A stretch of DNA of 64,000 bases from contig JAAWNQ010000005.1 of assembly GCA_022799035.1 (NCBI GenBank), forward strand, positions 1 to 64,000, in the 5' to 3' direction. A program made the translations under genes and the position numbers. Under the pieces are notes generated by a model. It saw nothing but the letters and a program-made list of their open reading frames with translations, was not told the DNA's origin and made no database searches. Numbering within the stretch: position 1 is the stretch's first letter; each line of letters starts with the position of its first letter. Source of the DNA: Oscillospiraceae bacterium. Its GTDB lineage: Bacteria > Bacillota > Clostridia > Oscillospirales > Oscillospiraceae. Of the stretch, positions 1,420-54,016 are shown in pieces.

Positions 1420-1710
1420 ATGCTTACCATCATTGAATTGGAGCCCCGGGAGGACGGGGGACATGGGGTGCAGAGCCAGAGCCACCGGAGGGAGTGCTGG
1501 CTGGAGGGCTGGGTGGAGGTGCCCGAGGAGCTGTGCGGGGCGGTCTGGGACTGCGGGGGGTACTGTGACCTGACCCTGGACGGGGAGGGGCGGCTCACCG
1601 CCGTTACGCCCACAGAGCGGCCCCGGGAGGAGCCGGAGCCCACCGGGGAGGAGAGGCTGCGGGCGGATGTGGACTTTATCGCGGCTATGACGGGGGTGGA
1701 GCTGGGGTGA
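1420..1710 (+). CDS. Phage tail-region hypothetical protein
   Basis: ORF immediately upstream of XkdX-like ORF; position and acidic C-term. Confidence 0.55.
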   Translation: MLTIIELEPREDGGHGVQSQSHRRECWLEGWVEVPEELCGAVWDCGGYCDLTLDGEGRLTAVTPTERPREEPEPTGEERLRADVDFIAAMTGVELG

Positions 1711-1852
1711 GTGAAAAGTGAAAAGTGAAAAAGCGGTGGCGGCCGAGGGCCGCCTCTTTTGAATGGTCCGGCGGAGCCGGACATGGAAAGAGGTCACGTT
1801 TCAGTTTTCCTTTTTAACGGGAACAGGTATTTACGGGAAGAGGAGGAAAAGA

Positions 1853-1993
1853 GTGACGGTTTTGGAGATGTGTGAGAGGTATTATCCCCGGCTTTGGGGT
1901 CGGGAGAGGCTGGAGGCTTTGGTGAGGGCGGGGAGGCTTTCACGGGAGGAGCTTGAGGGGATCTTGGGAAGGAGGGCGGAGAATGGACGATGA
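1853..1993 (+). CDS. XkdX-like small phage protein (GTG start)
   Basis: YYPRLWGRERLEALVRAGRLSREELEGILG resembles the XkdX pattern W..L..LV..G.I..EEY..I.G. Confidence 0.55.
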   Translation: MTVLEMCERYYPRLWGRERLEALVRAGRLSREELEGILGRRAENGR

Positions 1994-2663
1994 GAGGATG
2001 ACGGCGGAGAGGGTCCTGGAGCTGGCGCGGAGCCAGATCGGGGTGAGGGAGGAGCCACGGGGGAGTAACCGGGTGAAGTACAACACCGCCTACTATGGGC
2101 GGGAGGTCCAGGGCAGCGCCTACCCCTGGTGCTGCGCCTTTCAGTGGTGGCTGTTCCGGCAGACGGGGGCGGGGAGGCTGTTTTACGGCGGGGGGAGGAC
2201 CGCCCACTGCGAGACCCTGTACCAGTTTTATAAGAAAAAGGGGCAGGAGGTGGACAGGGGGGAGCTGAGGCCCGGGGACCTGGTGTTTTTCAATTTCAGC
2301 GGGGGAAAGAGGATGGAGCACATCGGCATCTGCGAGGCGGTGGAGCCGGGGTATGTGGTGACCATCGACGGGAACACGGGGGACGACGAGAGAAACGGCG
2401 GAGTGGTGGCCCGGAAGCGGAGGAGCTTGCAGTACGTAAGGGGGGCCGCGCGGCCGGAATATGAGGAGGAATACGGCATGAGGATATACAAATACGCCCA
2501 GGAGACCCCGGAGTGGGCCAGGGAGACGGTGGTGAAGGCCATCCGGAACGGGTATGTGAGGATGGACGGGACGGGGGCCATGAGTTTGTGGGAGGGGAAC
2601 CTCCAGCCCCTGGTGTGGATGGACCGGGCGGGGCTTCTGGACCGTCCGGCGCAGGAGGGCTGA
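1983..2663 (+). CDS. Phage endolysin/CHAP-type amidase
   Basis: ARSQIGVREEPRGSNRVKYNTAYYG...YPWCCAFQWW...GDLVFFNF...HIGICEAV: CHAP Cys/His motifs. Confidence 0.85.
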   Translation: MDDERMTAERVLELARSQIGVREEPRGSNRVKYNTAYYGREVQGSAYPWCCAFQWWLFRQTGAGRLFYGGGRTAHCETLYQFYKKKGQEVDRGELRPGDLVFFNFSGGKRMEHIGICEAVEPGYVVTIDGNTGDDERNGGVVARKRRSLQYVRGAARPEYEEEYGMRIYKYAQETPEWARETVVKAIRNGYVRMDGTGAMSLWEGNLQPLVWMDRAGLLDRPAQEG

Positions 2664-2664
2664 G

Positions 2665-3120
2665 ATGGAGGAGAGGGTGAGAGGATTCAAGGGGGCCGCG
2701 GCGGCCCTGCTGGGGACGCTGACCGCCCTGTGGGGCTGGTTCGGGTGGCTGGTGCTGGCCTGGGTGGGGGCCATGGCCCTGGATGTGGGCACCGGTATGG
2801 CGGCGGGGGCCAAGAGGGGGGAGTGGAGCTCCGGGATCGCCAGAGAGGGGCTTTGGCACAAGGCGGGGTGCGTGGCCGCGGTGACGGCGGCGGGGATGCT
2901 GGACCTGGTGGTGGGGCTGCTGCTGGAGCAGGTGGGGGAGGGGGTGCTCCCCTTCTCCTACGCGGTATTCCTGTGTCCGCTGACGGTGGGGTGGTATCTG
3001 CTCACCGAGGTGGGGAGCGTTTTGGAGAATGTGGGGCGGATGGGCGCCCCGGTGCCGGGGTGGCTGAGGCGGATGGTGGCGGAGCTGAGGGAGGAAGTGA
3101 AAGTGAAAAATGAAAAATGA
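2665..3120 (+). CDS. Phage holin (toxin-secretion/lysis holin family)
   Basis: Small multi-TM protein directly after endolysin; LDVGTGMAAGAKRGEWSSGIAREGLWHK motif; C-term VKVKNEK is encoded by the period-7 repeat. Confidence 0.8.
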   Translation: MEERVRGFKGAAAALLGTLTALWGWFGWLVLAWVGAMALDVGTGMAAGAKRGEWSSGIAREGLWHKAGCVAAVTAAGMLDLVVGLLLEQVGEGVLPFSYAVFLCPLTVGWYLLTEVGSVLENVGRMGAPVPGWLRRMVAELREEVKVKNEK

Positions 3121-3203
3121 AAAGGCTGTGGTGTGAAGGGGAGGGTATCGCTTTGGTTGAGGAAGAGAAGTGGGGGGAGAGTGTGGAAGCTGGGGGTGAG
3201 GCC

Positions 3204-3506
3204 ATGGGGCTGCGGAACCGGAAGGGGGTTTTGAGGGAGATCCAGAAGCTGGCCCAGAGCCGGGCCAACGACGCGGTGAAGCTGGCCTTTATGAGCGGGG
3301 AGGAGCTGGAGGGGCTGGAGGGGCTGGATCTGTCGGCGGTGACCGAGTTCAAGAGGAACAGCAACGGCACGGTGGAGCTGAAATTTGTGGACCGGCTGGC
3401 GGCGCTGCAGTGGCTGCTGGAGAGGGTGGGGGAGGACCCCCAGGCCCAGGAGCTGCGCAGAGCCTTGGAGGGGAGCGCGGAGCGGATGAGGGAGAGGGAG
3501 CTGTGA
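3204..3506 (+). CDS. Terminase small subunit-like protein
   Basis: Immediately upstream of and overlapping terL; AQSRANDAVKLAFMS. Confidence 0.6.
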   Translation: MGLRNRKGVLREIQKLAQSRANDAVKLAFMSGEELEGLEGLDLSAVTEFKRNSNGTVELKFVDRLAALQWLLERVGEDPQAQELRRALEGSAERMREREL

Positions 3507-4738
3507 TGAGGTTTTCCCGGAAGCAGAGGATAGCCATGAGCTGGTGGTGCGACGCCTCCCCCTGGAGGGACCGGGAGGCGGTGGTGTGCGACGGGGCGGT
3601 GCGGAGCGGGAAGACCCTGTGTCTGGGGATGGGGTTTTTCTTCTGGGCCATGAGCCGGTTTGACGGGGAGCAGTTCGCCCTGTGCGCCCGGAGCATGGAG
3701 GCGGTGCGGCGGAATCTCCTCCACCCCCTGAGGCCCCGGTTGGAGGCGCTGGGGTTCGCGGTGGAGGAGAGGGTGAGCCGGAACTGGCTGAAGGTGGCCT
3801 TTGGGGGGCATGAGAACACCTTTTGGCTCTTTGGAGGGAAGGACGAGGGGAGCGCGGGGAGCATTCAGGGGGTCACGTTGGCGGGGGCCTTTCTGGACGA
3901 GGTGACCCTGATGCCCCGGTCCTTTGTGGAGCAGACGGCGGCCCGGTGCTCGGTGGAGGGGGCCAAGCTGTGGTTCTCCTGCAACCCGGAGGGGCCGGAG
4001 CATTGGTTTTACAGGGAGTGGGTGTGTAAGGCGGAGGAGAAGAAGGCCCTGCGGCTCCACTTCCTCATGACGGACAACCCCTCCATCGGGGAGGAGACGC
4101 TGGAGAGGTACAAGCGGTATTTTCAGGGGATGTTCTACCGGCGGTTCGTGCTGGGGGAGTGGGCGCTGGCCGAGGGGCGGGTGTACGACTTCTTTGAGGA
4201 GGGCATGGTGGAGCCGGTCCCCCAGGGGGAGATGGAGGAGTGGCGGATCTCCTGCGACTACGGGACGGTGAACCCCACCTCCATGGGGCTTTGGGGGAGG
4301 CGGGGGGACACTTGGTACCGGGTGAGGGAGTACTACTATGACTCCCAGAGGACGGGGCGGCAGATGACGGACAGGGAGTATGTGAGGGAGCTGGAGAGGC
4401 TGGCGGGGGGACACCACATCAGGCGGGTGGTGGTGGATCCGTCGGCGGCCAGCTTTATAGCGGCCCTCCGGGAAGAGGGGTGGCCGGCCGCGGCGGCGGA
4501 CAACCAGGTGCTCAGCGGGATCCGGGTGACGGCGGATCTGCTCCGGCGGGGGAGACTGGTGATCTGCGAGGGGTGCGTGGACGCCATCCGGGAGTTTTCC
4601 CTCTACTGCTGGGACCGGGAGGCGGGGGAGGACCGGGTGGTCAAGCGGTTTGACCACGCCATGGATGAGATCCGGTATTTTGCCATGAGCCTGAGGAGGG
4701 AGGCGTTTATCGGAGGGTTTGGGGTAGAGAGAAAATGA
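3506..4738 (+). CDS. Phage terminase large subunit (PBSX-type)
   Basis: Walker A-like CDGAVRSGKTLCLGMGF, FLDEVTLMP, NPEGPEHWFYREW, nuclease-domain SCDYGTVNP / VVVDPSAASF. Confidence 0.92.
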   Translation: MRFSRKQRIAMSWWCDASPWRDREAVVCDGAVRSGKTLCLGMGFFFWAMSRFDGEQFALCARSMEAVRRNLLHPLRPRLEALGFAVEERVSRNWLKVAFGGHENTFWLFGGKDEGSAGSIQGVTLAGAFLDEVTLMPRSFVEQTAARCSVEGAKLWFSCNPEGPEHWFYREWVCKAEEKKALRLHFLMTDNPSIGEETLERYKRYFQGMFYRRFVLGEWALAEGRVYDFFEEGMVEPVPQGEMEEWRISCDYGTVNPTSMGLWGRRGDTWYRVREYYYDSQRTGRQMTDREYVRELERLAGGHHIRRVVVDPSAASFIAALREEGWPAAAADNQVLSGIRVTADLLRRGRLVICEGCVDAIREFSLYCWDREAGEDRVVKRFDHAMDEIRYFAMSLRREAFIGGFGVERK

Positions 4739-4837
4739 AAAGTGAAAAATGAGTGAGGGCGGAGGAGATGGCCTTTTGACGGGGAGAGACGGCTTTGTTA
4801 GGCAGCGGGGAGAGTTTGGGGTTTCGTTTGAGGAGGG

Positions 4838-5989
4838 GTGGAATTGAAGTGGTTTGAGAGGAGGAAGGCGGCGGGGGTTACGGTGCAGACCCGGCAGGGG
4901 ACGGGTCATCCCTTTGGGGTCCTGAGGGGGTATGTGCCCCTGGGGCGGGGGGAGATGGAGCTGTATCGGGCTCTGCGGGAGGCGCTGCCCCTGGTGGACG
5001 CGGCGGTGGGGAAGCTGGTGCGGCTGGCGGGGGGCGTGAGGGTCTGTGCCGGAGAGGGGCAGAGGGAGCTGGAGCGGTTTTTGCGGACGGTGGACGTGGG
5101 CCGGGGGCAGAGGGGGCTCCAGGCCTTTTTGGACGTGTATCTGGACTCCATGCTGGTGTGCGGACGGGGGGTGGGGGAGATGGTGGTGGACTGGGAGCGG
5201 GGGGAGATCGCCGCTGTGCTGTGCGCCGATCCGGCCCTTATTGAGCTGAAGGAGGGGGAGGACCCGTTGGAGTTCACCGTCTGCGCCAGGAGGAGGGACG
5301 GGAGGGTGGAGGAGCTGCCCCGGCAGGAGCTGATCCTGTTTACCCCCTATCAGCCAGAGGCGGAGCATCCCTACGGGGTGTCCCTGCTGCGGAGCATGCC
5401 CTTTCTGGGGGAGATCCTGCTGGAGATCTATCAGGCGGTGGGGGTGAACTGGGAGAGGATGGGCAACGCCCGGTTCGCCGTGGTCTACAAGCCGGAGGCG
5501 GGGGAGGCCCCCTGGGCCAGGGAGCGGGGGGAGGAGATCGCCCGGGAGTGGTCCAGGGCCATGCGGGGAGGGCCGGGGGACGAGATTCGGGACTTTGTGG
5601 CCGTGGGGGATGTGGAGATCAGGGTCATTGGGGCGGACAACCAGATCCTGGACAGCCAGGTCCCGGTGCGGCAGATCCTGGAGCAGTTGGTGGCCAAGAC
5701 GGGGATCCCACCCTTCTTACTGGGGCTTTCCTGGTCCTCCACCGAGCGGATGAGCGCCCAGCAGGCGGATATGCTCACCAGTGAGATCGACGCCCTACGG
5801 CGGGGGCTGACCCCGGTGGTGGAGCGGATCTGTGAGCTGTGGCTGGGGCTGCATGGGTACGAGCGGGAGGTGACGGTGGAGTGGGAGGATGTGAATTTGC
5901 AGGATCTGGTGGAGGAGGCGAGAGCGGAATTGTATCATGAGCAGGCGAGGGAGTTGCGTTGGGGGAGGAAGAGGGCAGAGGAGAGGTGA
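4838..5989 (+). CDS. Phage portal protein
   Basis: Follows terL; LDSMLVCGRGVGEMVVDW, KTGIPPFLLGLSWSSTERMSAQQADMLT portal-type motif. Confidence 0.88.
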   Translation: MELKWFERRKAAGVTVQTRQGTGHPFGVLRGYVPLGRGEMELYRALREALPLVDAAVGKLVRLAGGVRVCAGEGQRELERFLRTVDVGRGQRGLQAFLDVYLDSMLVCGRGVGEMVVDWERGEIAAVLCADPALIELKEGEDPLEFTVCARRRDGRVEELPRQELILFTPYQPEAEHPYGVSLLRSMPFLGEILLEIYQAVGVNWERMGNARFAVVYKPEAGEAPWARERGEEIAREWSRAMRGGPGDEIRDFVAVGDVEIRVIGADNQILDSQVPVRQILEQLVAKTGIPPFLLGLSWSSTERMSAQQADMLTSEIDALRRGLTPVVERICELWLGLHGYEREVTVEWEDVNLQDLVEEARAELYHEQARELRWGRKRAEER

Positions 5990-6188
5990 GCCGACGGAGG
6001 CAGATCCTATGAGGGGACCCCGGGAGTTAAAAGTTAAAAGTGAAAAGTGAAAAATGAAAAGTGGGGAGCGGGGAGGGGGCGGTTGCGCCGAGAGGGTAGT
6101 GTGGGGCGGTGGAGAGTGCAGCTGGCGCGCCGGGTCGTCGCGCCCCACGGTATGCGAGGTAAGGGGAAATTGGAGGGAGGAGTTTGGA

Positions 6189-7109
6189 ATGGACGTTCGG
6201 AAAGAGGCTGGGGTAGAGAATATGGGGGGCTTGGAGAATGGGGAGATGGAGCTGATCAACCGGCTGGCCCGGAGGGAGCTGAAGGGGTCGGAGGTATATG
6301 TCTTTCAGCTTCGGCTGTGCGACAACGAGATCGACCGGGAGGGGGAGCGGTTTTCCCGGGAAACCTTGGAGGGGCTGGCGCCGCTGTTTGTGGGAAAGAG
6401 CGGGATCTTTGACCACAATTGGTCGGCGGGGGGACAGACGGCCCGGATCTACCGGACTGAGGTGGTGGAGGAGCCGGGGAAGGTCACCGGGGCGGGGGAT
6501 GGAGCCTGCTTTTTGAAGGGGTGGGCCTATATGCTCCGGACCCCGGGGAACGAGGAGCTGATCGCCCAGATCGAGGGGGGCATCAAGAGGGAGGTCAGCG
6601 TGGGCTGCGCGGTGGAGCGGTCGGTTTGCTCGATATGCGGGGAGGAGATGGGCTCCTGCCGGCATGTGAAGGGGCGGACATACAACGGGAAGCTGTGCTG
6701 GGCGGAGCTGACGGGGGCGAAGGACGCCTATGAGTGGTCCTTTGTGGCGGTGCCCGCCCAGAGGGGGGCTGGGGTGATGAAGGCTTTGAGCCCCGCTTTG
6801 AAGGAGCTGGCCCGGGGGAACGGAAGGGCCATGGAGGAGCTGCTGGAGCTGGAGAAGGAGGCCCGGATGGGGCGGCGGTATCTGGACCAGCTTCGGCGGG
6901 AGGTGGTACGGCTGGCGGCGGTGAGCGAGCCGGGGCTGGAGACGCGGGTGGTGAGAGCCATGGTGGACAAGCTGGGGGAGGAGGAGCTGGAGGCCATGAA
7001 AAGGCTGCTCTCCCATCAGGGACGGGAGCGGCTGGAGGGGGGAGTGCAGCTTACCTATCCCGGGACAGGGACGGCGGAGAGGGCCGGGGACGGGGCCTTT
7101 TTGGTGTAG
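6189..7109 (+). CDS. Phage prohead protease-like protein
   Basis: Between portal and capsid; FDHNWSAGGQTARIY, REVSVGCAVERSVCSICGEEMGSCRHVKG, AYEWSFVAVPAQRGAGVMK. Confidence 0.7.
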   Translation: MDVRKEAGVENMGGLENGEMELINRLARRELKGSEVYVFQLRLCDNEIDREGERFSRETLEGLAPLFVGKSGIFDHNWSAGGQTARIYRTEVVEEPGKVTGAGDGACFLKGWAYMLRTPGNEELIAQIEGGIKREVSVGCAVERSVCSICGEEMGSCRHVKGRTYNGKLCWAELTGAKDAYEWSFVAVPAQRGAGVMKALSPALKELARGNGRAMEELLELEKEARMGRRYLDQLRREVVRLAAVSEPGLETRVVRAMVDKLGEEELEAMKRLLSHQGRERLEGGVQLTYPGTGTAERAGDGAFLV

Positions 7110-7154
7110 GGATGGCAGTTGGGAACATAAATATTATGTAAACTGAAAGGAGAG

Positions 7155-7514
7155 ATGGGTATGAGAAGCAAGGTTTCCTTTGAGGGCGTGGGAGAGGTGG
7201 CGGCCACCTTCTATGCCGCGGAGGGCGTGAAGGCGGGGGAGGTGGTCCGGGTCTGCGGGGACGCCACGGTGGGACCCTGCGGGGCCGGGGAGCGGTTTGA
7301 CGGGACGGCGTTGTCCCTCCGGGGCGGCTGCGCCGGGGTGCAGACCGGGGGCTTTGCCGCGGTGCGGTGCTCGGACAGTGCGGTGACGGTGGGGTATGTG
7401 AGCCTCACCGCCGACGGAGGCGGTGGCGTGAGGAAGGCGGGGGACGGGGACGAGGGGAAGGAATTCCTGGTGGTGGCCGACGACGGGGCGGGCATCATCA
7501 CCATCAAAATGTGA
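7155..7514 (+). CDS. Capsid decoration/accessory protein
   Basis: Small ORF between protease and capsid; beta-rich Gly-rich sequence. Confidence 0.5.
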   Translation: MGMRSKVSFEGVGEVAATFYAAEGVKAGEVVRVCGDATVGPCGAGERFDGTALSLRGGCAGVQTGGFAAVRCSDSAVTVGYVSLTADGGGGVRKAGDGDEGKEFLVVADDGAGIITIKM

Positions 7515-7527
7515 GGAGGACGGCGGT

Positions 7528-8559
7528 ATGAATGGACATTTTCAGGATGTAAAGCTGGAGAAGGGGATGTACGGGGTGGCGGGGAGAAGCTTCTCCGCGG
7601 TGCTGGAGAGGGAGGATCCCTCGGAGCGGTACAAGGGCACCGCCCTGGAGGGGCTGGACGCCTTTCAGCGGCAGCTCAAGCGGTTTGACATCAAGGTGAA
7701 GGGGAGCGCCAGCGACCCGGTGGAGAAGTTTTTCCAGACCGCCCAATCGGCGGTGCTGTTTCCCGAGTACATTGCCCGGAGCGTGCGCCAGGGCATGGAG
7801 GAGGCCGATCTGCTGCCCTCCATCACCGCGGCGGTGACCCGGGTCGAGGGGATGGATTACCGGCCGGTGACCTCGGTGCCCGAGAGGGGGAAGAAGGAGC
7901 TACGGCGGGTGGAGGAGGGGACCACCATCCCCCAGACCCAGGTGAAGAGCCAGGAGAATCTGGTGAAGCTCCACAAGCGGGGGCGGATGCTGGTGTGTTC
8001 CTATGAGGCGGTGCGGTACCAGAAGCTGGACCTGTTTTCCGTGACCCTGCGGCAGATGGGGGCCCACATCAGCCGGCAGCTGTTGGAGGACGCCATCGGG
8101 GTGCTGGAGAAGGGGGATGGCAACAACAACCCCGCCAAGACCCTGAAGGTGGGGACCGCCCCCATTGGCGGCACGGCGGGAAAGCTGACCTACAGTGAGC
8201 TGGTGGACTTCTGGGCCCAGTTTGAGCCCTATGAGATGAACACTCTGCTGGTCAGCGGGGATGTGATGCTCCAGCTTTTGAAGATGGAGGAGCTGCGCAA
8301 TCCTCTCACAGGGCTGAACTTTCAGGGGACGGGAAAGCTGACCTCCCCCCTGGGGGCGGAGCTGCTGCGGACCAGCGCCCTGGAGGGGGGAAAGCTGATC
8401 GGACTGGACAAGCGGTACGCCCTGGAGATGGTGAAGGCCAGCGACGTGATGGTGGAGTATGACAAGCTCATCGACCGGCAGATGGAGCGGGCGGCCATCA
8501 CCACCATCGCCGGGTTTGCCAAGGTGTTTGAGGAGGCCAGCAAGGTGATGACCGTGTGA
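7528..8559 (+). CDS. Phage major capsid protein
   Basis: QTAQSAVLFPEYIARSVRQGMEEADLLPSI...DYRPVTSVPE; size and synteny. Confidence 0.85.
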   Translation: MNGHFQDVKLEKGMYGVAGRSFSAVLEREDPSERYKGTALEGLDAFQRQLKRFDIKVKGSASDPVEKFFQTAQSAVLFPEYIARSVRQGMEEADLLPSITAAVTRVEGMDYRPVTSVPERGKKELRRVEEGTTIPQTQVKSQENLVKLHKRGRMLVCSYEAVRYQKLDLFSVTLRQMGAHISRQLLEDAIGVLEKGDGNNNPAKTLKVGTAPIGGTAGKLTYSELVDFWAQFEPYEMNTLLVSGDVMLQLLKMEELRNPLTGLNFQGTGKLTSPLGAELLRTSALEGGKLIGLDKRYALEMVKASDVMVEYDKLIDRQMERAAITTIAGFAKVFEEASKVMTV

Positions 8560-8671
8560 AGGGAAAAGGGGTAGAGGATCAAGAGCGGTCCCGCCGCCAT
8601 GGGGCGGAGGGGAGAGAGTTTTGGGAGGGGCCGGTCCGGGTGGGCCGGCCCCCCCTGTGAGGAGGGGCGGT

Positions 8672-9016
8672 ATGGTTGAGGAAGTTTTGGCCCTGGCGGC
8701 GACTCTGGGGAAGGTGGAGGAGAGCGGGGAGCTGAGGCTGCTGTGTGAGGCCGCGGTGAGGGAGCTGACGGGGGCACTCCGGGAGGGGATGGCCCCGGAG
8801 GACTGCGGGGCGGCCTTTGTGCTGGGAGCGGCCTGGCTGGCTCTGGCGGGGCTGGAGACGGGGAGGGAGCGGGTGGAGAGCTTTACCGCCGGGGCGGTGT
8901 CGGTCCGGACCGGAGGGAGCGGGAGGGATAAGGCCCTGCGGCTCCAAGCCCGGCAGGTGATGAAGCCTTTTCTGCGGGATGAGGGGTTTATTTTTCGGGG
9001 GGTGCGAGGGAATTGA
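8672..9016 (+). CDS. Phage head-tail connector-type protein
   Basis: Position after capsid; AVSVRTGGSGRDKALRLQARQVMKPFL. Confidence 0.5.
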   Translation: MVEEVLALAATLGKVEESGELRLLCEAAVRELTGALREGMAPEDCGAAFVLGAAWLALAGLETGRERVESFTAGAVSVRTGGSGRDKALRLQARQVMKPFLRDEGFIFRGVRGN

Positions 9017-9399
9017 GAGAGCTTTGGGAACAGGTTTTGGAGGGGTACGGTCAGTGGGTGAGCCTGAGCCGGGAGGGGGGAGAGACCCGGGTGAAGGCGT
9101 TGTTTCAGCCGGTGGAGGAGAAGCGGGAGGGGGAGACGCCCTCCCCGCTGGGGGTGGCGCCGGTGGGAAGGTATCTCTACCTGGGGCCGGCGGGGGAGAG
9201 TTTGGAGGATGTGAGAGAGGTGGGCTGGAACGGCAGGGCCTTCCGGCTTGTGCGGCGGCGGGAGTATTGGGTGGGAAGGGAGAAGGTGTACTGGTGGGGT
9301 TTGCTGGAGGAGAGGGATGAGGCGGCGGGGGCAAGCCCCCGCCCTACGGAGGGGGTGCGGCCCGATGGGTCATCGGGCCCTACGGGGAGTTGGAGCTGA
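9013..9399 (+). CDS. Phage head completion-type protein; C-terminus encoded by REP-like palindromes
   Basis: ATGA overlap with previous ORF; tail AAGASPRPTEGVRPDGSSGPTGSWS is repeat-derived. Confidence 0.55.
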   Translation: MRELWEQVLEGYGQWVSLSREGGETRVKALFQPVEEKREGETPSPLGVAPVGRYLYLGPAGESLEDVREVGWNGRAFRLVRRREYWVGREKVYWWGLLEERDEAAGASPRPTEGVRPDGSSGPTGSWS

Positions 9400-9506
9400 G
9401 GGGGATGGCGGTGAAGGGTGAGGGATGGGGCGGCGGGTCCCAAGGAGAGGGAGAAAGAAGTTTGGTGGTGCGCCCTACGGGACGGATTGGAGGAGGAAGT
9501 GGGGGA

Positions 9507-10001
9507 ATGGGGTTGAAGGGATTGCAGGAGATGCGGCGGAGGCTGGTGGAGTTTGTGGGGGAGAACGGGCTGGAGGCGGTGGCGGCCTGGGGGCCGGAGG
9601 GACGGCCCAGGCCGGGACGGGCGGTGGTGGCGGTGAGCCTCCGGGGGGTGGAGAGCGGGCCGCCGGGGTTCCGGGATTACCTGGGGGAGCGGTATGACCC
9701 GGAGGGGGGCTGCTGGGAGGAGCTCTACGGAAAACGGGTGGAGCTGACCTTCGGGCTGGACGTGTACGGGGAGAGCGCGGAGGAGGTACACAGGGGACTG
9801 GATATTCTGGGGGGACTTTTGGAGCGGGGGCCGGAGGGGCTGCGGCCCGTGGGGTTTTCCGCGGGGGAGACCGGCTATGACGGGGAGTGCAAGAGATACC
9901 GCTGTCCGGTCCAGGCCCGGTTTTCGGTGTGGGCCACGGCGGTGAGCAGGGAGGAAGGAAGCTTCCTGGACTTTGAGGTGAGAGGAGAGGAGCATACATG
10001 A
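9507..10001 (+). CDS. Phage tail completion/terminator-like protein
   Basis: Directly upstream of sheath and overlapping it. Confidence 0.5.
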   Translation: MGLKGLQEMRRRLVEFVGENGLEAVAAWGPEGRPRPGRAVVAVSLRGVESGPPGFRDYLGERYDPEGGCWEELYGKRVELTFGLDVYGESAEEVHRGLDILGGLLERGPEGLRPVGFSAGETGYDGECKRYRCPVQARFSVWATAVSREEGSFLDFEVRGEEHT

Positions 10002-11020
10002 AGGTGACGGAGCATCAGAGACCGGGGGTCTATTCGGTTTACGACGCGTCCTCGGCGGTGAGGGGAAACCGGGGGGGACGGGCGGTGGGCCTGGTGGGGG
10101 TCTGCGACAAGCTGACGGCGGGGAAGGCAGAGCATTTTGGAAGCTGTCAGCAGGCCGAGAGCCGGCTGGGAGCCGGGGAGCCCATGACGGAACTGATCCG
10201 GGTGCTGTTCAGCAACGGGGCGGGTCAGGTCTGGGCGGTGGCGGCGGAGGACGAGGCGGGGTATGAGGCCGCCTTCGCCGCGCTGGAGAAGGTGGAGGAT
10301 CTGGCGGCGGTGGTGTGTGACAGCGGGGAGGAAAGGGTGCAGCAAAAGCTGCGGGACAGTGTAAAGAACGCCTCGGCAAACCGGCGGGAGCGGCTGGCGG
10401 TGGTCTTTGGGAGCGAGGGGGAGACGGTGGAGACGCTGGTGGAGCGGGCCGGGGGCCTAAACTGCGAGCGGGTGGTCCTGGTGGCCCCCGGCGGGGCTGC
10501 GGCCGCCGCCGCTGTGGCGGGGGCCGTCGCCGGGGAGAGCGACCCGGCGGTACCCCTGGGAGGGGCGGAGCTGAACGGGCTTTCCGGCCTGGGGGGAGAG
10601 TGGGACGACAATGAGCTGGACACGCTGATCCTGGGAGGGGTGACCCCTCTGGAGAGCGCCGGGGGCGTGGTGAGCGTGGTGCGGGGGGTCACCACCCGGA
10701 CCAGGACCGGGCAGGCGGGGGACGCCACCTGGCGGGAGCTGACCACCATCCGGGTGGTGGATGACGTGATCCCCGGGATCCGGGACGCTCTGCGGACCCG
10801 GTTCAACAGGGCCAAGAACACCGAGCAGGGCCGGGGGGCCATCCGGAGCCAGGTCATTGTGGAGTTGGAAAACAAGGTGCGGCAGGAGATCATCACCGGG
10901 TATGAGGGGGTCACGGTCTCGGCCATGGAGGGGGAACCCACGGTGTGTCTGGTGGAGTTCAGCTTTCGGGTGGCCCACGGGATCAACCAGATCTGGGTGA
11001 CGGCCCATGTCACGGTTTGA
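9998..11020 (+). CDS. Phage tail sheath protein
   Basis: RPGVYSVYDASSAV N-term; NELDTLILGGVTPLESAGG...VVRGVTTRTRTG; TIRVVDDVIPGIRDALRTRF. Confidence 0.9.
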   Translation: MKVTEHQRPGVYSVYDASSAVRGNRGGRAVGLVGVCDKLTAGKAEHFGSCQQAESRLGAGEPMTELIRVLFSNGAGQVWAVAAEDEAGYEAAFAALEKVEDLAAVVCDSGEERVQQKLRDSVKNASANRRERLAVVFGSEGETVETLVERAGGLNCERVVLVAPGGAAAAAAVAGAVAGESDPAVPLGGAELNGLSGLGGEWDDNELDTLILGGVTPLESAGGVVSVVRGVTTRTRTGQAGDATWRELTTIRVVDDVIPGIRDALRTRFNRAKNTEQGRGAIRSQVIVELENKVRQEIITGYEGVTVSAMEGEPTVCLVEFSFRVAHGINQIWVTAHVTV

Positions 11021-11090
11021 GGGCGGGGTGCGGGCTGAAGGAGCCGTCCCTGACAGGGGAATTTCAATATGATGAGGAGGAGGGGAAGGT

Positions 11091-11480
11091 ATGATCGCTT
11101 CGCGGTTTCCTACCAGCGCGGACATCTATCTGGAACTGAACGGGAAGAAGCTGGCGGTGGTCCAGGGGTATTCGGCCCAGACCACCAAGACATCCTCGGT
11201 GGTGGAGGCCTTTGGGGAGAGCGAGCCGGTGGCCACCATCCCGGGGCCTAAACAGCACACGCTTACATTGACCCGGCTCTACGCCACCGAGGAGGCGGCC
11301 AGGAACGGGGTGAATTTCCATGAGCTGGAGGACTTTAATCTGGTGATCTGCAAGCCGGACCGGCGGGTGATTTACTCGGGGTGCCAGTGGGAGAACCTGA
11401 GCGAGACGGGGAAGCTGGGGGATATGGTGCTGGAGAAGGTCACCATAGTGGCCGCCCGGCGGGTGGAGACCGCCCTGTGA
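11091..11480 (+). CDS. Phage tail tube protein (XkdM-like)
   Basis: TSADIYLELNGKKLAVVQGYSAQTTKTSSVVEAFGE. Confidence 0.88.
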   Translation: MIASRFPTSADIYLELNGKKLAVVQGYSAQTTKTSSVVEAFGESEPVATIPGPKQHTLTLTRLYATEEAARNGVNFHELEDFNLVICKPDRRVIYSGCQWENLSETGKLGDMVLEKVTIVAARRVETAL

Positions 11481-11896
11481 GGGGGGGTATTCTCACCCTC
11501 CCCCGGGAAAGAGAGTTGGGGAGGGGGCTGAGCCTGCGGCTTCTCTCCGCCTGGGAGGAGCTGGAGTGCCGCAGGGAGGGGGAGGAGCTGGCGGGGGAGG
11601 AGAGGGACCGGGCCCTCTGCGCCAACGCCTGCCTGGTGGCCCGGACCCTGCGGAGAAACGGGGAGGCCGCCTTTGAAAGCGGGAGAGAGGTCCTGGAGCG
11701 GCTGACAGCGGGGCAGATCGGCCTGCTGGCGGAAAAGTGGGGGGAGTTTGACCGGGAATGCGATCCGGCTCCCTGGGACGAAGGGGCGGTGACTGAGGCA
11801 AAAAAAGGCTGGAGCACACGCCTTATGAGCGCCTTCAGTGGCGTGTGCTCAAGGCTTTTGGGGCCCTTCCCACGGAGGGGAGGGCCAGGGCGATGA
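11477..11896 (+). CDS. Tail assembly chaperone, zero-frame product (GTG start)
   Basis: GTGA overlap with tube gene; contains A7 slippery site 11800-11806. Confidence 0.7.
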   Translation: MRGGILTLPRERELGRGLSLRLLSAWEELECRREGEELAGEERDRALCANACLVARTLRRNGEAAFESGREVLERLTAGQIGLLAEKWGEFDRECDPAPWDEGAVTEAKKGWSTRLMSAFSGVCSRLLGPFPRRGGPGR

Positions 11897-12090
11897 CCCA
11901 CCGGGATTACCTTTGGTGCGGGGTGAATTTGGCCCTGGACGGGGAGGAGGCGCTTTCCCGGCTCTGTCCCGCCTGCCGGGAGAGGGCGGAGGAGAGCCGG
12001 TGCCCTGTGTGCGGGGCGGAGGCCGGAGACTGGGGAGAGAACCGGGGGTTTGATATGGAGCGGTTTTTGGAGATGGGGGGAGGAGATTGA
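11477..12090 (+). CDS. Tail assembly chaperone, predicted -1 frameshift fusion with zinc-ribbon-like C-terminus
   Basis: The -1 frame is open from the A7 run: ...KRLEHTPYERLQWRVLKAFGALPTEGRARAMTHRDYLWCGVNLALDG...CPACRERAEESRCPVCGAE. Confidence 0.75.
11800..11850 (+). promoter_or_regulatory. -1 ribosomal frameshift signal: A AAA AAA G plus 11-bp perfect stem
   Basis: caaaaaaaggctgGAGCACACGCCttatgagcgccttcagtGGCGTGTGCTC. Confidence 0.85.
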
Positions 12091-12647
12091 TCGATTTTCT
12101 GGCGCGGGCCCTGGAGCAGAGAGGGGAGGAGGAGAGAGGAAGCCGGGTGGAGGTGAAGATCCCCTCCCCGGGGGCGGTGTTTTCCCCGGACCGGGGGGAG
12201 GCCGTGAGGGCCGTTTTCCAACAGGGGGAGGAGCGGGGGACGGGGAGAAATATGGGGGCGGATAGTTTGGCGCGGAAGGTGGGAGGAGGGCTGGGGGAGG
12301 CTCCGGCGGGGACTGGGACGGCCGAGGAGGGAGTCTTCGGACAGATGGCCGCCGGACTGAGGGCAGGCGGTGAGCGCCGCTGGGAAAAGAGGGGGAGAAC
12401 GGAGCGGGGAGGGGCGGAGCGGGGGGAGGTCCTGGAGGGGGATAGAGGGAGGGGGGAGCTTTCCCTCCTCTCGGCGGTGCGGAGGGGGGAGAGGGCGGCA
12501 TCCCTTGCGCGGAGGCCCGGGAGGGATCTGACTGCCACTGCGTCTGAGGCCGCCGGTGGAGAGGCCGCCGGACTGACGGTGGAAGGGTTGGACCGGGCGG
12601 TGGAGCGGGACGCCCGGCGGTATGACGGCGGATTTTCCATGTATTAG
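12087..12647 (+). CDS. Small protein in tape-measure position (186 aa)
   Basis: Only ORF between chaperone and LysM baseplate gene; ends DRAVERDARRYDGGFSMY. Confidence 0.6.
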   Translation: MIDFLARALEQRGEEERGSRVEVKIPSPGAVFSPDRGEAVRAVFQQGEERGTGRNMGADSLARKVGGGLGEAPAGTGTAEEGVFGQMAAGLRAGGERRWEKRGRTERGGAERGEVLEGDRGRGELSLLSAVRRGERAASLARRPGRDLTATASEAAGGEAAGLTVEGLDRAVERDARRYDGGFSMY

Positions 12648-12659
12648 GAGGGGAGAGAG

Positions 12660-13247
12660 ATGGAACTGGCGCCCATGAGATATAAGGACTTTATCTGGCC
12701 CCACAACCCCAGGACCTACACGGTGGAGTACAGGCGGGAGATGGGGGTACATAAGGTCCCCTTTGGGCGGTATCACCTACAGGACTTAGGCCCCACCCGG
12801 CGGGTCATGCGGGGGGAGGGGGAGTTTGTGGGGGAGACGGCCTATCAGAGATTTCGGGAGCTGGCGGACGTGTTTTACAGCGGGGGGCCGGGGGTGCTGG
12901 TCCACCCGGTTTGGCAGGCGGCCAACGTGTACTTTGTGGAGCTGGATCTGGAGCAGGAGCCCCGGCGGGACTATGTGAGATACCGGTTTGCCTTCTGGGA
13001 GGGCTATGAAGGGTATCAGGCCTACGCCAGGGGGGTGGAGGAGAAGGCCTCCGGAGGAGCCGGGGGGATGGAGAGCGGAGGGACGGGAGGGGAGCCGGGG
13101 GAGGTCTGGCACCAGGTGGCCAAGGGGGAGAGCCTTTGGAGGATCGCCCGGGAATACGGGGTGGACCTGACGGCGGTCATCGCCCTGAACCCTCAGATCA
13201 AAAACCCCAATCTGATCCATCCGGGGGAGAGGGTGAGGGTGAGATGA
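12660..13247 (+). CDS. LysM-domain phage tail/baseplate protein (XkdP-like)
   Basis: C-term WHQVAKGESLWRIAREYGVDLTAVIALNPQIKNPNLIHPGERVRVR LysM. Confidence 0.88.
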   Translation: MELAPMRYKDFIWPHNPRTYTVEYRREMGVHKVPFGRYHLQDLGPTRRVMRGEGEFVGETAYQRFRELADVFYSGGPGVLVHPVWQAANVYFVELDLEQEPRRDYVRYRFAFWEGYEGYQAYARGVEEKASGGAGGMESGGTGGEPGEVWHQVAKGESLWRIAREYGVDLTAVIALNPQIKNPNLIHPGERVRVR

Positions 13248-14179
13248 TGAGGGGATATCTGCTCAACGCCCGGGGGGAGCGGCTGGAGCTGCCCCCGTTC
13301 ACCTCCTGGCGGCTGAGGCGGACGGGAGGGGTGCCCTGCGACAGCTTTGAGGGGGAGTGCCCCTGGGACCGGGGGGTGGAGCCCGCCTTTGACAGCGCCT
13401 GCCGCCTGGTGGCGGAGGAGGGGGCGGAGCGGCGGTTTACCGGGGTTTTGGACGAGTATGAGCTGAGCTGGGACGGCGGGGGCGGAAGGCTGTCCCTTTC
13501 CGGCCGGGGGCTGGCGGCTCTGCTGCTGGACAACCAGGCGGCGGGGCGGGACTATCAGGTGGCTACCTTGGAGGATATCCTCCGGGAGCATGTGCGGCCC
13601 TACGGGGTGCCGGTGGGCCGGGTGGGGAATCTGGCGGCGGTGACGGGTTTCTCGGTGGCCGCCGGGTCCAGCCAGTGGCAGGTGCTCTATGATTTCGCCC
13701 GGTACCACAACGGGGTCCAGCCCCGGTTTGACGTGTGGGGAAGTCTTCAGGTGGCCCCGGGGGAGCCGGGAGGGCTGGTGAGGGTGGACCGGAGAACGGG
13801 GGTCACGGGGGTCTCCTTTCGGGATAAGAGGTACGGGGTGTACTCTGAGATCCTGGTCCAGGACCGGGGGAGGCTGGGAAGTCAGCGGGTGGCCCAGGAG
13901 GGATTTATCGCCCAGGGAGGGCAGTGCCGGCGGGTCTTTACCATGCCGGGGAAAAGCGCCTATCAGGCTATGCGGTACTCCGGGCAGTTCCAGTTGGACC
14001 GGTCCCAGGAGGAGCGGTTTCGGGTGGAGCTGACGGTGCCGGGAAGCTATTTCTGCGAGCCGGGGGACCGGGTGGCGGTAGAGCTGGACAGGCCGGCACT
14101 CCGGGGGACCTGGAGGGTGCTGGAGACCGAGGGGATCCTGGACGGGAAGGGCTGCCGGGTGAAGGTGACCATGGGATGA
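13244..14179 (+). CDS. Baseplate hub/late control D-like protein (XkdQ-like)
   Basis: Synteny; VSFRDKRYGVYSEILVQDRG; ATGA overlap. Confidence 0.7.
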   Translation: MMRGYLLNARGERLELPPFTSWRLRRTGGVPCDSFEGECPWDRGVEPAFDSACRLVAEEGAERRFTGVLDEYELSWDGGGGRLSLSGRGLAALLLDNQAAGRDYQVATLEDILREHVRPYGVPVGRVGNLAAVTGFSVAAGSSQWQVLYDFARYHNGVQPRFDVWGSLQVAPGEPGGLVRVDRRTGVTGVSFRDKRYGVYSEILVQDRGRLGSQRVAQEGFIAQGGQCRRVFTMPGKSAYQAMRYSGQFQLDRSQEERFRVELTVPGSYFCEPGDRVAVELDRPALRGTWRVLETEGILDGKGCRVKVTMG

Positions 14180-14197
14180 GAGAAGGAGGGGGACAGG

Positions 14198-14581
14198 GTG
14201 TTTTTGAGCCGGAGAGAGAGGATGCGGGGGCCGGAGGGACAGGCGCTGGTGGGTCCGGTGACGGTGGCGGGGGACCCGGCGGGGGCCTTTTTGGAGGGGG
14301 AGCGGCGGGGACTGGAGGTATACGCCCCCGGGGGCTACCACTGGGTCCCCGGCCTGGGGGATGAGGTGCTGGCCCTGAAGGCGGGGCAGGAGGGAGAGAA
14401 GCCCTGTCTGTTGGGGGTGCCCTCCCGGGGGGAGGGGCTGCGGCCCGGGGAGGTGCTGATCCGGGCGGGGAAAAGCACCATCCTGCTCACCCCCGAGGGG
14501 AGGGTGGAGATCCGGGGGAGGGTCACCGTGAATGGGACCCAGGTGGGCCCTCTGCCCGAGCCGGAGGAGGGGGAGGAATGA
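14198..14581 (+). CDS. Baseplate spike/assembly protein
   Basis: Gly/beta-rich YHWVPGLGDEVLALKAGQEGEKPCLLGVP; C-term VEIRGRVTVNGTQVG spike-like. Confidence 0.65.
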   Translation: MFLSRRERMRGPEGQALVGPVTVAGDPAGAFLEGERRGLEVYAPGGYHWVPGLGDEVLALKAGQEGEKPCLLGVPSRGEGLRPGEVLIRAGKSTILLTPEGRVEIRGRVTVNGTQVGPLPEPEEGEE

Positions 14582-14919
14582 CGCTGATCTTGCGGGATGG
14601 GGACTATGTCCCCGACGGAAAGGGGGGCTTTCAGAGGGCGGCGGGGGCGGAGGAGCTGCTGGAGAGGATCCTGTGGAAGCTGTCGGTCCGCCGGGGGAGC
14701 TTTCCCTTTCTGCCAGAGCTGGGGAGCCGGCTCCATCTGCTGGGGTGGGCCCCGGCCAGGGAGCGGCAGGCCCTGGCGGGGCAGTATGTGACGGAGGCTC
14801 TGGCCGACGAGGAGGTGACTCTCACCGGGACGGAGCTGGAGGGGGAGAGGCTGACCCTCCGCTTGGAGTGGCGGGGGGAGAGCCTGACGGCGGCGATGAA
14901 GGTGGGAGGGATGACATGA
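14578..14919 (+). CDS. gp25/XkdS-like baseplate wedge protein
   Basis: LRRGSFPFLPELGSRLHLLGWA...VTEALADEEVTLTG pattern. Confidence 0.75.
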   Translation: MTLILRDGDYVPDGKGGFQRAAGAEELLERILWKLSVRRGSFPFLPELGSRLHLLGWAPARERQALAGQYVTEALADEEVTLTGTELEGERLTLRLEWRGESLTAAMKVGGMT

Positions 14920-15971
14920 AGCGGGTGGAGGAAATCTACGACGAGATGCTGGAGGTGTTCCGGAGGGAGACGGGGGCGGAGGCTTCGGCGGTGAGCGACC
15001 TGTCGGTGAAGCTGTACGCGGTGGCGGCCCAGGTATGGGGGCTCTACGCCCAGGGGGAGTGGCTGTCCCGGCAGTGCTTTCCCCAGACGGCGGCGGGGGA
15101 ATATCTGGACCGCCACGCTGCTCTTCGGGGGCTGGAACGGCGGAGAGCCGCCCCGGCGGAGGGACTGATCCGGTTTTCGGTGGACGGTCCCGGAGGGGCG
15201 GACCTCTCCATCGAAAAGGGGACGGTGTGCGCCACGGCGGGGCTGTGCCGGTTTGAGACGGTGGAGAGGGCTGTCCTGAAGGCGGGGGAGACCTCCGTGG
15301 AGGTGCCGGCCCGGGCTCTGGAGGCGGGGACGGCGGGGAATGTACCCGCTGGGAGCATTCTGCTGATGGTGGTGCCCCCGGTGGGGGTGAGCCGGTGTGT
15401 CAATGCCGCTGCCTTCTCCGGGGGGATCAATGAGGAGGAGGACGAGGCCCTCCGGGCCCGGGTGCTGGAGACCTACCGGCGGATGCCCAACGGGGCCAAC
15501 GCCGCCTTCTATGAGCAGGGGGCCTTGTCCTTCGACCAGGTCTGTGCCTGCGCGGTTCTCCCCCGGCACCGGGGGATCGGGACGGTGGATGTGGTGGTCA
15601 CCACCCGGGCGGGACTGCCCGGGGCGGAGCTGCTGGAGGAGTTGGGGGAATACTTTGCCCGGCGGCGGGAAATAGCCGTGGATGTGAAGGTAAAGGCCCC
15701 ACAGGTCAAAAGCGTGAATGTATCGGTCCGGGCCGCCCCCCGGGAGGGATTTTCTGCCCACCAGGTCAAAAGCCAGGTGGAGCAGGCCCTCCGGGATCAC
15801 TTTTCCGGGGAGCGGCTGGGGGAGAACGTGCTGGTGGCAGGGCTGAATCAGTTGGTATTCTCCCAGCCCGGGGTGGCCAACTGCGCTGTGCTGGCCCCCG
15901 CCGCCGATGTGGAGGTGGCCCCTGGGGAGCTTCCCAGATTGGGGAGTCTGACGGTGGAGGTGACGGCATGA
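14916..15971 (+). CDS. Baseplate J-family protein (XkdT-like)
   Basis: GTAGNVPAGSI...GGINEEEDEALRARVLETYRRMPNGANAAFYEQGAL. Confidence 0.9.
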   Translation: MKRVEEIYDEMLEVFRRETGAEASAVSDLSVKLYAVAAQVWGLYAQGEWLSRQCFPQTAAGEYLDRHAALRGLERRRAAPAEGLIRFSVDGPGGADLSIEKGTVCATAGLCRFETVERAVLKAGETSVEVPARALEAGTAGNVPAGSILLMVVPPVGVSRCVNAAAFSGGINEEEDEALRARVLETYRRMPNGANAAFYEQGALSFDQVCACAVLPRHRGIGTVDVVVTTRAGLPGAELLEELGEYFARRREIAVDVKVKAPQVKSVNVSVRAAPREGFSAHQVKSQVEQALRDHFSGERLGENVLVAGLNQLVFSQPGVANCAVLAPAADVEVAPGELPRLGSLTVEVTA

Positions 15972-16540
15972 GAGGGGACAGCGCCCGGAGGATGTGGGAG
16001 ATGCTGGCCCCCCTGGGTCCCTACCGGAGGCAGGGGGTCTACACCGCCGGGGAATTGGAGGGAGAGGGGCAGGCTTTGGACGGGGTGGCGGCGGCGTTGG
16101 AGGAGCTGGAGCGGGAGGCCCTGCTGGACACGGCGGAGAGTTATGGGCTGGAGGCTATGGAGGAGCTGTTGGTCCACCGGCCGGTGGCCCAGACCCCCCA
16201 GGACCGGCGGGGGGCGTTGTCCGCCCTGCTGCGGATCGGCGGGGACAGCTTTACCCTGGCGGCCATCAATGACAACCTGAGGGGCTGTGGTCTCAACGCC
16301 CAGGTCAGCGAGACCGGAGAGCCGGGAGTGGTGGAGGTCCGTTTTCCCGATGTGCCGGGGATCCCGGAGGGGTTTGACCGGATGAGGAAGATCATTGAGG
16401 ATATCCTGCCCTGTCATCTGAAGGTGAACTATGTGTACTGGTATATCACCTGGGCCTTGATGGAGGAGCGGTTCCCCACCTGGGGGGATATTGAGGCGGA
16501 GGGACATAGCTGGGAGGCGTTGGAGAAGCTGGTACGGTAA
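15968..16540 (+). CDS. YmfQ/DUF2313-like phage tail protein
   Basis: Follows gpJ-like gene; ETAESYGLEAMEELL...RIGGDSFTLAAIND; C-term EDILPCHLKVNYVYWYITW. Confidence 0.75.
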   Translation: MRGDSARRMWEMLAPLGPYRRQGVYTAGELEGEGQALDGVAAALEELEREALLDTAESYGLEAMEELLVHRPVAQTPQDRRGALSALLRIGGDSFTLAAINDNLRGCGLNAQVSETGEPGVVEVRFPDVPGIPEGFDRMRKIIEDILPCHLKVNYVYWYITWALMEERFPTWGDIEAEGHSWEALEKLVR

Positions 16541-17202: not shown

Positions 17203-17337
17203 TATCATTTTTCTCTGGAAAATTCTGGAGAATAAAAGGGGAAGGGTCCCAAATTTCGTCAAGTATTTTCCAGAATATGGAATATACTGTCCCTGATAAC
17301 GGGCCGGGACCGGCCCCTTACATAGGAGGAGACAGTG

Positions 17338-33260: not shown

Positions 33261-33443
33261 ATGAAAGCGACTGGAATCGTGCGGCGGATCGACGACCTGG
33301 GGCGGGTAGTGATCCCCAAGGAGATCCGCCGGACCATGCGTATCCGAGAGGGCGACCCGTCACAGACAGCATTGACACAGTGGGAACGATATTGCTTGGG
33401 GATGATGGATCTGTCCAGGCGGCAGGGGTGGGGGAGTACATAA
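33261..33443 (+). pseudogene. spoVT: spoVT 5' fragment (33 codons up to GDP) plus element-derived tail
   Basis: MKATGIVRRIDDLGRVVIPKEIRRTMRIREGDP then SQTALTQWERYCLGMMDLSRRQGWGST*; GGAGGAG RBS. Confidence 0.92.
33351..33380. other. attL: core GGCGACCCG (33351-33359) plus element arm CATTGACACAG
   Basis: Core identical to 55785-55793; spoVT reading frame rejoins exactly across it. Confidence 0.88.
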
Positions 33444-52981: not shown

Positions 52982-54016
52982 ATGGATAATAAAAATGACG
53001 AACTGATGAAGGCTGGCGAGGTGCTGCTGTACAGCGATAACAATGGCAAAGAGTTTGTGAGTGTGGTTTTTCAGGAGGAGAATTTCTGGCTGACACAGAG
53101 CGGGATGGCACAGCTCTTTGACTGTACCCCGGAAAATGTGCTTCAGCACTTGAAGAACATCTATGCCGAGGAGGAATTGGAACAAGAGGCAACTACTAAG
53201 AAATTCTTAGTAGTTCGTCAGGAGGGGTCCAGGCAGGTCCAGCGCAATCTGGACCACTATAACCTGGACGCCATCATTGCCGTGGGCTACCGAGTGAATT
53301 CCAAAAAAGCAACCCGGTTCCGCCAGTGGGCCACCAAAACCCTGAAGGAGTATATCCAAAAGGGTTTCGTCCTCAACGATGAACTGATGAAGAATGGCCG
53401 ACCCTTCGGGAAGGACTACTTCGACGAGCTTCTGGAGCGCATCCGGGAGATCCGAGCCAGCGAGCGCCGGGCCTACCAGAAGATCGCCGACATCTTCGAG
53501 CAGTGCAGCTATGACTACGACAAAGACAGCGAGACAACCAAGGCATTCTATGCCTTTGTACAGAACAAGCTCCATTTCGCTGTCACCGGCAAGACGGCGG
53601 CAGAGCTGATCAGCGAGCGGGCCACCTTGGACAGCCCCACCATGGGCCTTACCACCTGGAAGGCAGGTCCCGGAGGGAAGATTTTGAAAAGTGATACCCT
53701 GGTGGCCAAGAATTACCTGAATGAGAAGGAGATCTCCCGCCTCAACCGTCTGGTCACCATGTTCATCGACTATGCCGAGCTGATGGCCGAGGATGAAGTG
53801 CCTATGTCCATGGAGGACTGGCTTGCAGAGACCGACCAGTTTCTGACCAACAATCGCCGAAAGGTGCTGGCCGGAAAGGGGAAGGTCTCCCGGGAAGAGG
53901 CAGAGAGAAAGGTCTCCGCCATTTATGAGGAGTTCCGCAAAAAGCAGGATGCCGCCTACATCTCGGAATTTGACCGCCAGACGGCGAAATACCTGAAGGG
54001 TGAAACCGATGATTGA
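52982..54016 (+). CDS. RhuM-family protein
   Basis: EENFWLTQSGMAQLFDCTPENVLQHLKNI...NLDAIIAVGYRVNSKKATRFRQWATKTLKEYI. Confidence 0.93.
   Translation: MDNKNDELMKAGEVLLYSDNNGKEFVSVVFQEENFWLTQSGMAQLFDCTPENVLQHLKNIYAEEELEQEATTKKFLVVRQEGSRQVQRNLDHYNLDAIIAVGYRVNSKKATRFRQWATKTLKEYIQKGFVLNDELMKNGRPFGKDYFDELLERIREIRASERRAYQKIADIFEQCSYDYDKDSETTKAFYAFVQNKLHFAVTGKTAAELISERATLDSPTMGLTTWKAGPGGKILKSDTLVAKNYLNEKEISRLNRLVTMFIDYAELMAEDEVPMSMEDWLAETDQFLTNNRRKVLAGKGKVSREEAERKVSAIYEEFRKKQDAAYISEFDRQTAKYLKGETDD

Follow-up and report, generated by a model that had tools for sequence, protein, structure and literature searches.

Comparative evidence for a hairpin-stimulated -1 frameshift in the tail-chaperone gene of a chromosome-resident, phage-like gene cluster of Oscillospiraceae

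In phages lambda and HK97, the gene directly after that of the major tail protein (gpG/gpGT and gp13/gp14, respectively) undergoes a -1 shift near its 3' end that gives a longer fusion protein; gpG binds and coats the tape measure, whereas the tail subunit is bound by the T domain (PMC5009743). The gene examined here occupies the same position and has its shift site at the same place. It lies in a window of 64,000 nucleotides, the whole stretch of DNA analysed, from an Oscillospiraceae bacterium (contig JAAWNQ010000005.1). Unlike lambda and HK97, the window system has a four-cysteine extension, a strong 11-bp hairpin, and a very short tape-measure candidate, and its chaperone sits in a resident, nonmobile cluster with a contractile tail. 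The three-part layout of the Escherichia coli dnaX cassette (an upstream SD sequence, the heptamer A_AAA_AAG, and a downstream stem) has a counterpart in the window, with a purine-rich upstream stretch, an A-rich heptamer, and a stem 5 nt downstream, but the family described here uses A_AAA_AAA or A_AAA_AAC, its product is longer and not shorter, and the protein is unrelated. The best overall explanation of this site is very probably hairpin-stimulated -1 ribosomal frameshifting in the chaperone gene of a chromosome-resident phage-like cluster. Comparative evidence argues that the frameshift, whose signal is conserved in dozens of species, is real; it belongs to a known recoding class but shows unusual evolutionary diversity. 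We class the chaperone as working like the G/GT family in an atypical setting, given the 186-aa tape-measure candidate.

Two resident elements also invite comparison. PBSX of Bacillus subtilis is a resident defective contractile phage whose tail genes run in the order sheath, tube, chaperone, tape measure, LysM, hub. The window cluster shares this order but differs in being cluster-only and family-wide and in having a minimal tape measure. FpGTA of Faecalibacterium is likewise a phage-derived packaging cluster from a related gut family, often with its lysis module at a separate locus, but it is podovirus-like (PMC12946183), whereas the window cluster has a contractile tail. The cluster is not FpGTA, and no homology between the two was detected: a profile search recognized no capsid or large terminase homologs in three Faecalibacterium genomes. 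These genomes (G514, G570, and G610) we take to be Faecalibacterium from a match of 97 to 98% to a 16S V4 sequence of that genus. No published description of the window cluster was found in the literature searched.

The cluster is compact (~15 kb, 1420-16540), with head, contractile-tail, and lysis genes (Table 1), with SpoIIE located after it at 17335. Between a host PHP/histidinol-phosphatase-like gene and the cluster start lie approximately 24 copies of AAGGGCG (1149-1310). Lysis genes are found apart from the cluster in some relatives, for example ~81 kb away in genome G231. At L348 (G231) and L349 (G119), the lysis genes (XkdX-like, CHAP lysin or amidase, and holin) form islands of their own between host genes, which in L349 include adjoining addB/addA-like genes. 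In the window and likewise in relatives, the chaperone sits between the tube gene (11091-11480) and the next ORF (from 12087), and the gap from tube to xkdP measures ~0.5 to 1.5 kb in homologs. The ORF at the tape-measure position (12087-12647) is far shorter than the usual tape measure, which is the usual though not strictly defining companion of G/GT systems, and has a conserved C terminus, RDARRYD. Elsewhere in the window, spoVT is split: its 5' part (33261-33359) breaks off at the 9-mer GGCGACCCG (33351), which recurs at 55785, where the 3' part picks up again and runs to 56237 as an in-frame fusion with a large serine recombinase (54000-56237). The ~22.4 kb between the halves encode YqaJ, a conjugation coupling protein, and a relaxase of the MobA/MobL type, so that a sporulation gene is interrupted here by a skin-like mobile element.

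Table 1. Coordinates of the cluster genes and of the recoding elements in the window
Feature	Position	Strand	Basis or remark
g1420, XkdX-like, CHAP lysin, holin	1420..3120	+	adjacent here; elsewhere in chromosome in several relatives
Head/packaging: small terminase-like, large terminase, portal, protease/scaffold-like, small ORF, major capsid (PF25209)	3117..8559	+	fixed order in relatives and across the order
Contractile tail sheath	9998..11020	+	Pfam PF17482/PF04984
Tail tube protein	11091..11480	+	phrog_27038 (1.5e-55) and position
Zero-frame protein resembling tail assembly chaperones, 139 aa, GTG start overlaps tube stop	11477..11896	+	position after tube; homolog fold; weak PHROG tail-chaperone matches
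Purine-rich SD-like stretch AAGGGGCGG, ~10-13 nt 5' of A7, possible third stimulator	11781..11789	+	anti-SD pairing
Slippery heptamer A_AAA_AAA (X_XXY_YYZ register, chaperone frame)	11800..11806	+	position and register shared by 71 distinct loci
-1-frame extension, 94 aa after slip, four cysteines in two CxxC, zinc-ribbon-like	11806..12090	+	selection, CxxC conservation, fused homologs
Stem 5' arm GAGCACACGCC	11812..11822	+	compensatory changes; pairing in 97.4% of stem cells (71 loci)
Stem 3' arm GGCGTGTGCTC	11840..11850	+	pairs with 11812-11822
ORF at tape-measure position, 186 aa, TTG start overlapping -1 stop	12087..12647	+	role suggested by position
Baseplate/hub: XkdP-like LysM, hub, two small baseplate genes, gpJ, Gp48-like	12660..16540	+	domain/profile matches

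The cluster appears to be a domesticated, chromosome-inherited part of gut Oscillospiraceae and no ordinary phage. The tube protein has 263 relatives in the species collection and 172 in IMG/VR; among the former, the top 80 bear Oscillospiraceae or related clostridial names, and cultured carriers include Flavonifractor, Pseudoflavonifractor, and Evtepia isolates. In anatomy and apparently in inheritance the cluster resembles a gene transfer agent (GTA), with packaging and transfer putative; GTA-like packaging has been reported in Onthomonas (Oscillospiraceae), the operon not being named (PMC12946183). It is possible, though we consider it doubtful, that the cluster is instead a defective prophage of the ordinary kind or encodes a killer particle resembling PBSX or a tailocin, and the frameshift would be real in either case. 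The contractile tail, hub, and lysis genes would fit such an element, as would the PBSX-like order of tube, chaperone, tape measure, LysM, hub, and baseplate, but a complete set of head and terminase genes under purifying selection speaks against it. Selection of this kind extends over the head-tail structural and packaging genes; dN/dS for cluster genes lies between 0.07 and 0.71, and their dS is comparable in magnitude to that of spoIIE. Presence is patchy, as a defective prophage might be (106 of 301 family genomes), yet the tube occurs in one copy per genome, and gene order and spacing from small terminase to Gp48 are kept in relatives over dozens of named species loci. Also contrary to a prophage, ordinary host genes flank the cluster, with no integrase, excision, or replication genes, in the window and the six relatives inspected. 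Cluster divergence tracks that of rpoB (Mantel r = 0.81 for the concatenated genes of 21 genomes; 0 of 2000 permutations for each gene), and tube, sheath, and capsid have no isolate phage relative among 50,697 INPHARED records, in which only unannotated fecal contigs matched. The cluster and rpoB trees are nonidentical, and the chromosomal site differs between genera.

Two observations concern database records labeled as viral. The 46.7-kb GenBank fecal "Bacteriophage sp." record L355 (MT835508.1) is largely bacterial chromosome, with ribosomal protein, rnf-like, and other host genes, and carries an inserted head module from small terminase to capsid. In IMG/VR (L192-L271), 26 of 29 loci with both terminase and Gp48 measure 12.5 to 14.3 kb, the size of the bare cluster; these "proviruses" are probably resident clusters.

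At the slip site, the zero frame of the chaperone gene runs act gag gca aaa aaa ggc tgg agc. A preliminary description of this DNA had reported an A7 read as gca aaa aaa ggc, followed after 5 to 6 nt by an 11-bp stem with a 17-nt loop and by a -1 frame open to 12090 with CPAC and CPVC motifs. Direct reading of the sequence bears out all of these points, fixing the spacer at 5 nt (11807-11811), the stem at 11 Watson-Crick pairs around a loop at 11823-11839, and the -1 stop codon as TGA. This A7 is the sole one within the first 28.9 kb of the window, perfect short-loop stems of at least 10 bp are few in 24 kb (the chaperone-gene stem among them), and the 67-nt fold reaches -32.1 kcal/mol (z = -3.87 versus dinucleotide shuffles). 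An Rfam search gave no frameshift family and only chance matches below gathering scores. The signal stands decisively beyond chance because it is conserved in homologs, which rules out a fortuitous A7. The purine-rich stretch described upstream is indeed present, but the role of AAGGGGCGG as an SD-like stimulator is only suggestive: across homologs, mean anti-SD pairing is maximal 9 to 13 nt upstream of the A7, and the best upstream anti-SD energy is -9.2 at A7 sites versus -5.8 at control sites and -7.4 in fused homologs, a modest enrichment in a G-rich genome that is less distinct from the fused homologs.

Homologs, comprising 224 distinct loci found via the neighboring tube protein, provide strong comparative evidence for programmed -1 ribosomal frameshifting. 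In 71 of these, the A7 is in register at the same place, 240 to 420 nt past the tube stop, and all 71 enter a -1 ORF of ~100 codons. All 11 stem pairs are intact in 61 of the 71, and the fraction of stem cells that are paired is 97.4% over these loci and 98.2% in a set of 31 sequences, for which 0 of 500 shuffles gave a covariation score as high. At one stem pair, A-U occurs 35 times, G-C 27 times, G-U 9 times, and A-C never (71 loci; Fisher p = 4e-12). Shared ancestry does not explain this covariation, since the same pair underwent at least 16 changes on the tree per side, with double compensatory swaps between A-U and G-C in 7 of 23 sister pairs. Dual coding was ruled out as the sole cause of stem conservation by two loci (L016 and L055) in which the zero frame ends 3 codons past the A7 and the stem is nevertheless intact. 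The preliminary description had named loss of the A7 in close homologs, lack of covariation, and an independent start at 11893 as findings that would speak against frameshifting, and had proposed a homolog alignment. In close homologs the A7 is conserved, compensatory stem changes are repeated, and conservation of the -1 frame begins upstream of 11893.

Slippage of RNA polymerase on the A-run, with the -1 frame read from mRNAs carrying an inserted A, is an improbable alternative for the window. Runs of 9 A or T allow efficient polymerase slippage, as in Thermus thermophilus dnaX (PMC5009743), and 19 homologous loci have exactly nine A's, lack the conserved stem (0 to 8 of 11 pairs), and often have a zero-frame stop 3 codons on. 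These A9 loci form one clade (support, 0.989), and in them polymerase slippage is the likelier mechanism. The window and 70 other loci, however, have just 7 A's and a covarying stem at 5-nt spacing. Furthermore, a ribosomal heptamer fits better than polymerase slippage because 11 further loci carry A_AAA_AAC in place of the A7, with just 6 A's before a C, yet have a modified stem.

The -1 ORF is itself under purifying selection (dN/dS, ~0.23), and its two CxxC motifs are present in all A7 and A9 loci of the set examined for them. The cysteine-rich extension, previously remarked upon as less usual, occurs in almost every A7 or A9 member of this chaperone family and is no peculiarity of the window locus. 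Zinc-ribbon (DZR) matches over the CxxC region are subthreshold. Approximately 20 homologs without a slippery site read both domains in one ORF, giving exactly the two-domain product, and these in-frame fusions argue that the product is real. Although they encode the same protein region, fused homologs have only 2 to 9 of the 11 stem pairs. An independent start at 11893 was thereby ruled out as the main explanation: that the C-terminal domain is a separate protein from GTG 11845 or ATG 11893, the A7 and stem being incidental or regulatory, is highly improbable, for although the second domain stands alone in some relatives, conservation of the -1-frame protein sets in at the A-run itself (KKSLEHTPYERLRWRVLKxFGALPTE), far 5' of 11893, the fused homologs join both domains in frame, and stem and heptamer are conserved together.

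Assignment of the zero-frame product as a chaperone is supported by its position and, tentatively, by the modeled fold of a homolog; Pfam gave no significant match, and PHROG matches were weak or subthreshold. For a fused homolog (AlphaFold pLDDT, 87), the best PDB match, and hence the closest known structure to the modeled fold, was the HK97 TAC 2ob9 (probability, 0.87; weak E value, 0.36), and matches of the model to viral structures included several TACs, all with weak E values. The earlier reading as a G/GT-type -1 frameshift is well supported by the in-frame heptamer, the open and selected -1 extension, and the covarying stem. Comparison of the loci shows that the heptamer is conserved in register, that the stem covaries, that the -1 frame is under selection, that some homologs are fused, and that the cluster lacks mobility genes and diverges in step with rpoB. 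We infer that the slippage is ribosomal and of an efficiency that confines it to a minority of ribosomes, that the protein acts as a chaperone, and that the element is GTA-like. In the model proposed, the majority of ribosomes would stay in one frame from 11477 and produce the 139-aa chaperone, which would coat the tape-measure protein in tail assembly. A minority would pause at the 11-bp hairpin and slip one base back on A_AAA_AAA, yielding a 204-aa form (from GTG 11477) with a Cys4 zinc-ribbon-like C-terminal domain that, by analogy with lambda gpGT, may recruit tail-tube subunits.

Many relatives do without the frameshift. In some, the slippery site is deleted along with the cysteine region, and in others chaperone remnants are fused to the next gene; the class outside A7, A9, and fused loci mixes true losses with A6C loci and early-ending contigs and therefore gives no count of losses. 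Across the order, the capsid gene was found in 72 of 396 genomes, nearly always once and in other families as well, and the tail genes around it vary from sheath and tube without a recognizable chaperone to tube alone, baseplate genes alone, or head alone. Chaperone profiles matched 0 of 50 outer loci, and the frameshift chaperone was found with the full tail only. The same head module thus seems to be joined to ever smaller tails across the order, and the recoding modes in this series are A7 or A6C with a hairpin, A9 without one, a fused ORF, and loss. These data suggest the direction of change rather than fix it; since both fused and lost states occur among the deepest lineages, the frameshift may instead have been gained later. 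We regard as evenly balanced the broader proposal that this is an ancient GTA-like element inherited order-wide, with a graded tail series in which recoding mode records stepwise tail decay, and that it possibly explains Onthomonas-type packaging.

In sum, tail-chaperone frameshifting is usually studied in fast-evolving phages, and here it is found in an apparently chromosome-inherited gene, so that gain, loss, and change of recoding mode, from A7 or A6C with a hairpin through stemless A9 with possible polymerase slippage to in-frame fusion, can be traced on one tree. The finding suggests that a phage-derived particle cluster is widespread among Oscillospiraceae, prominent gut bacteria for which a recent study reported GTA-like packaging but identified no operon (PMC12946183). 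It also suggests that a contractile tail can shrink stepwise while the head is retained.
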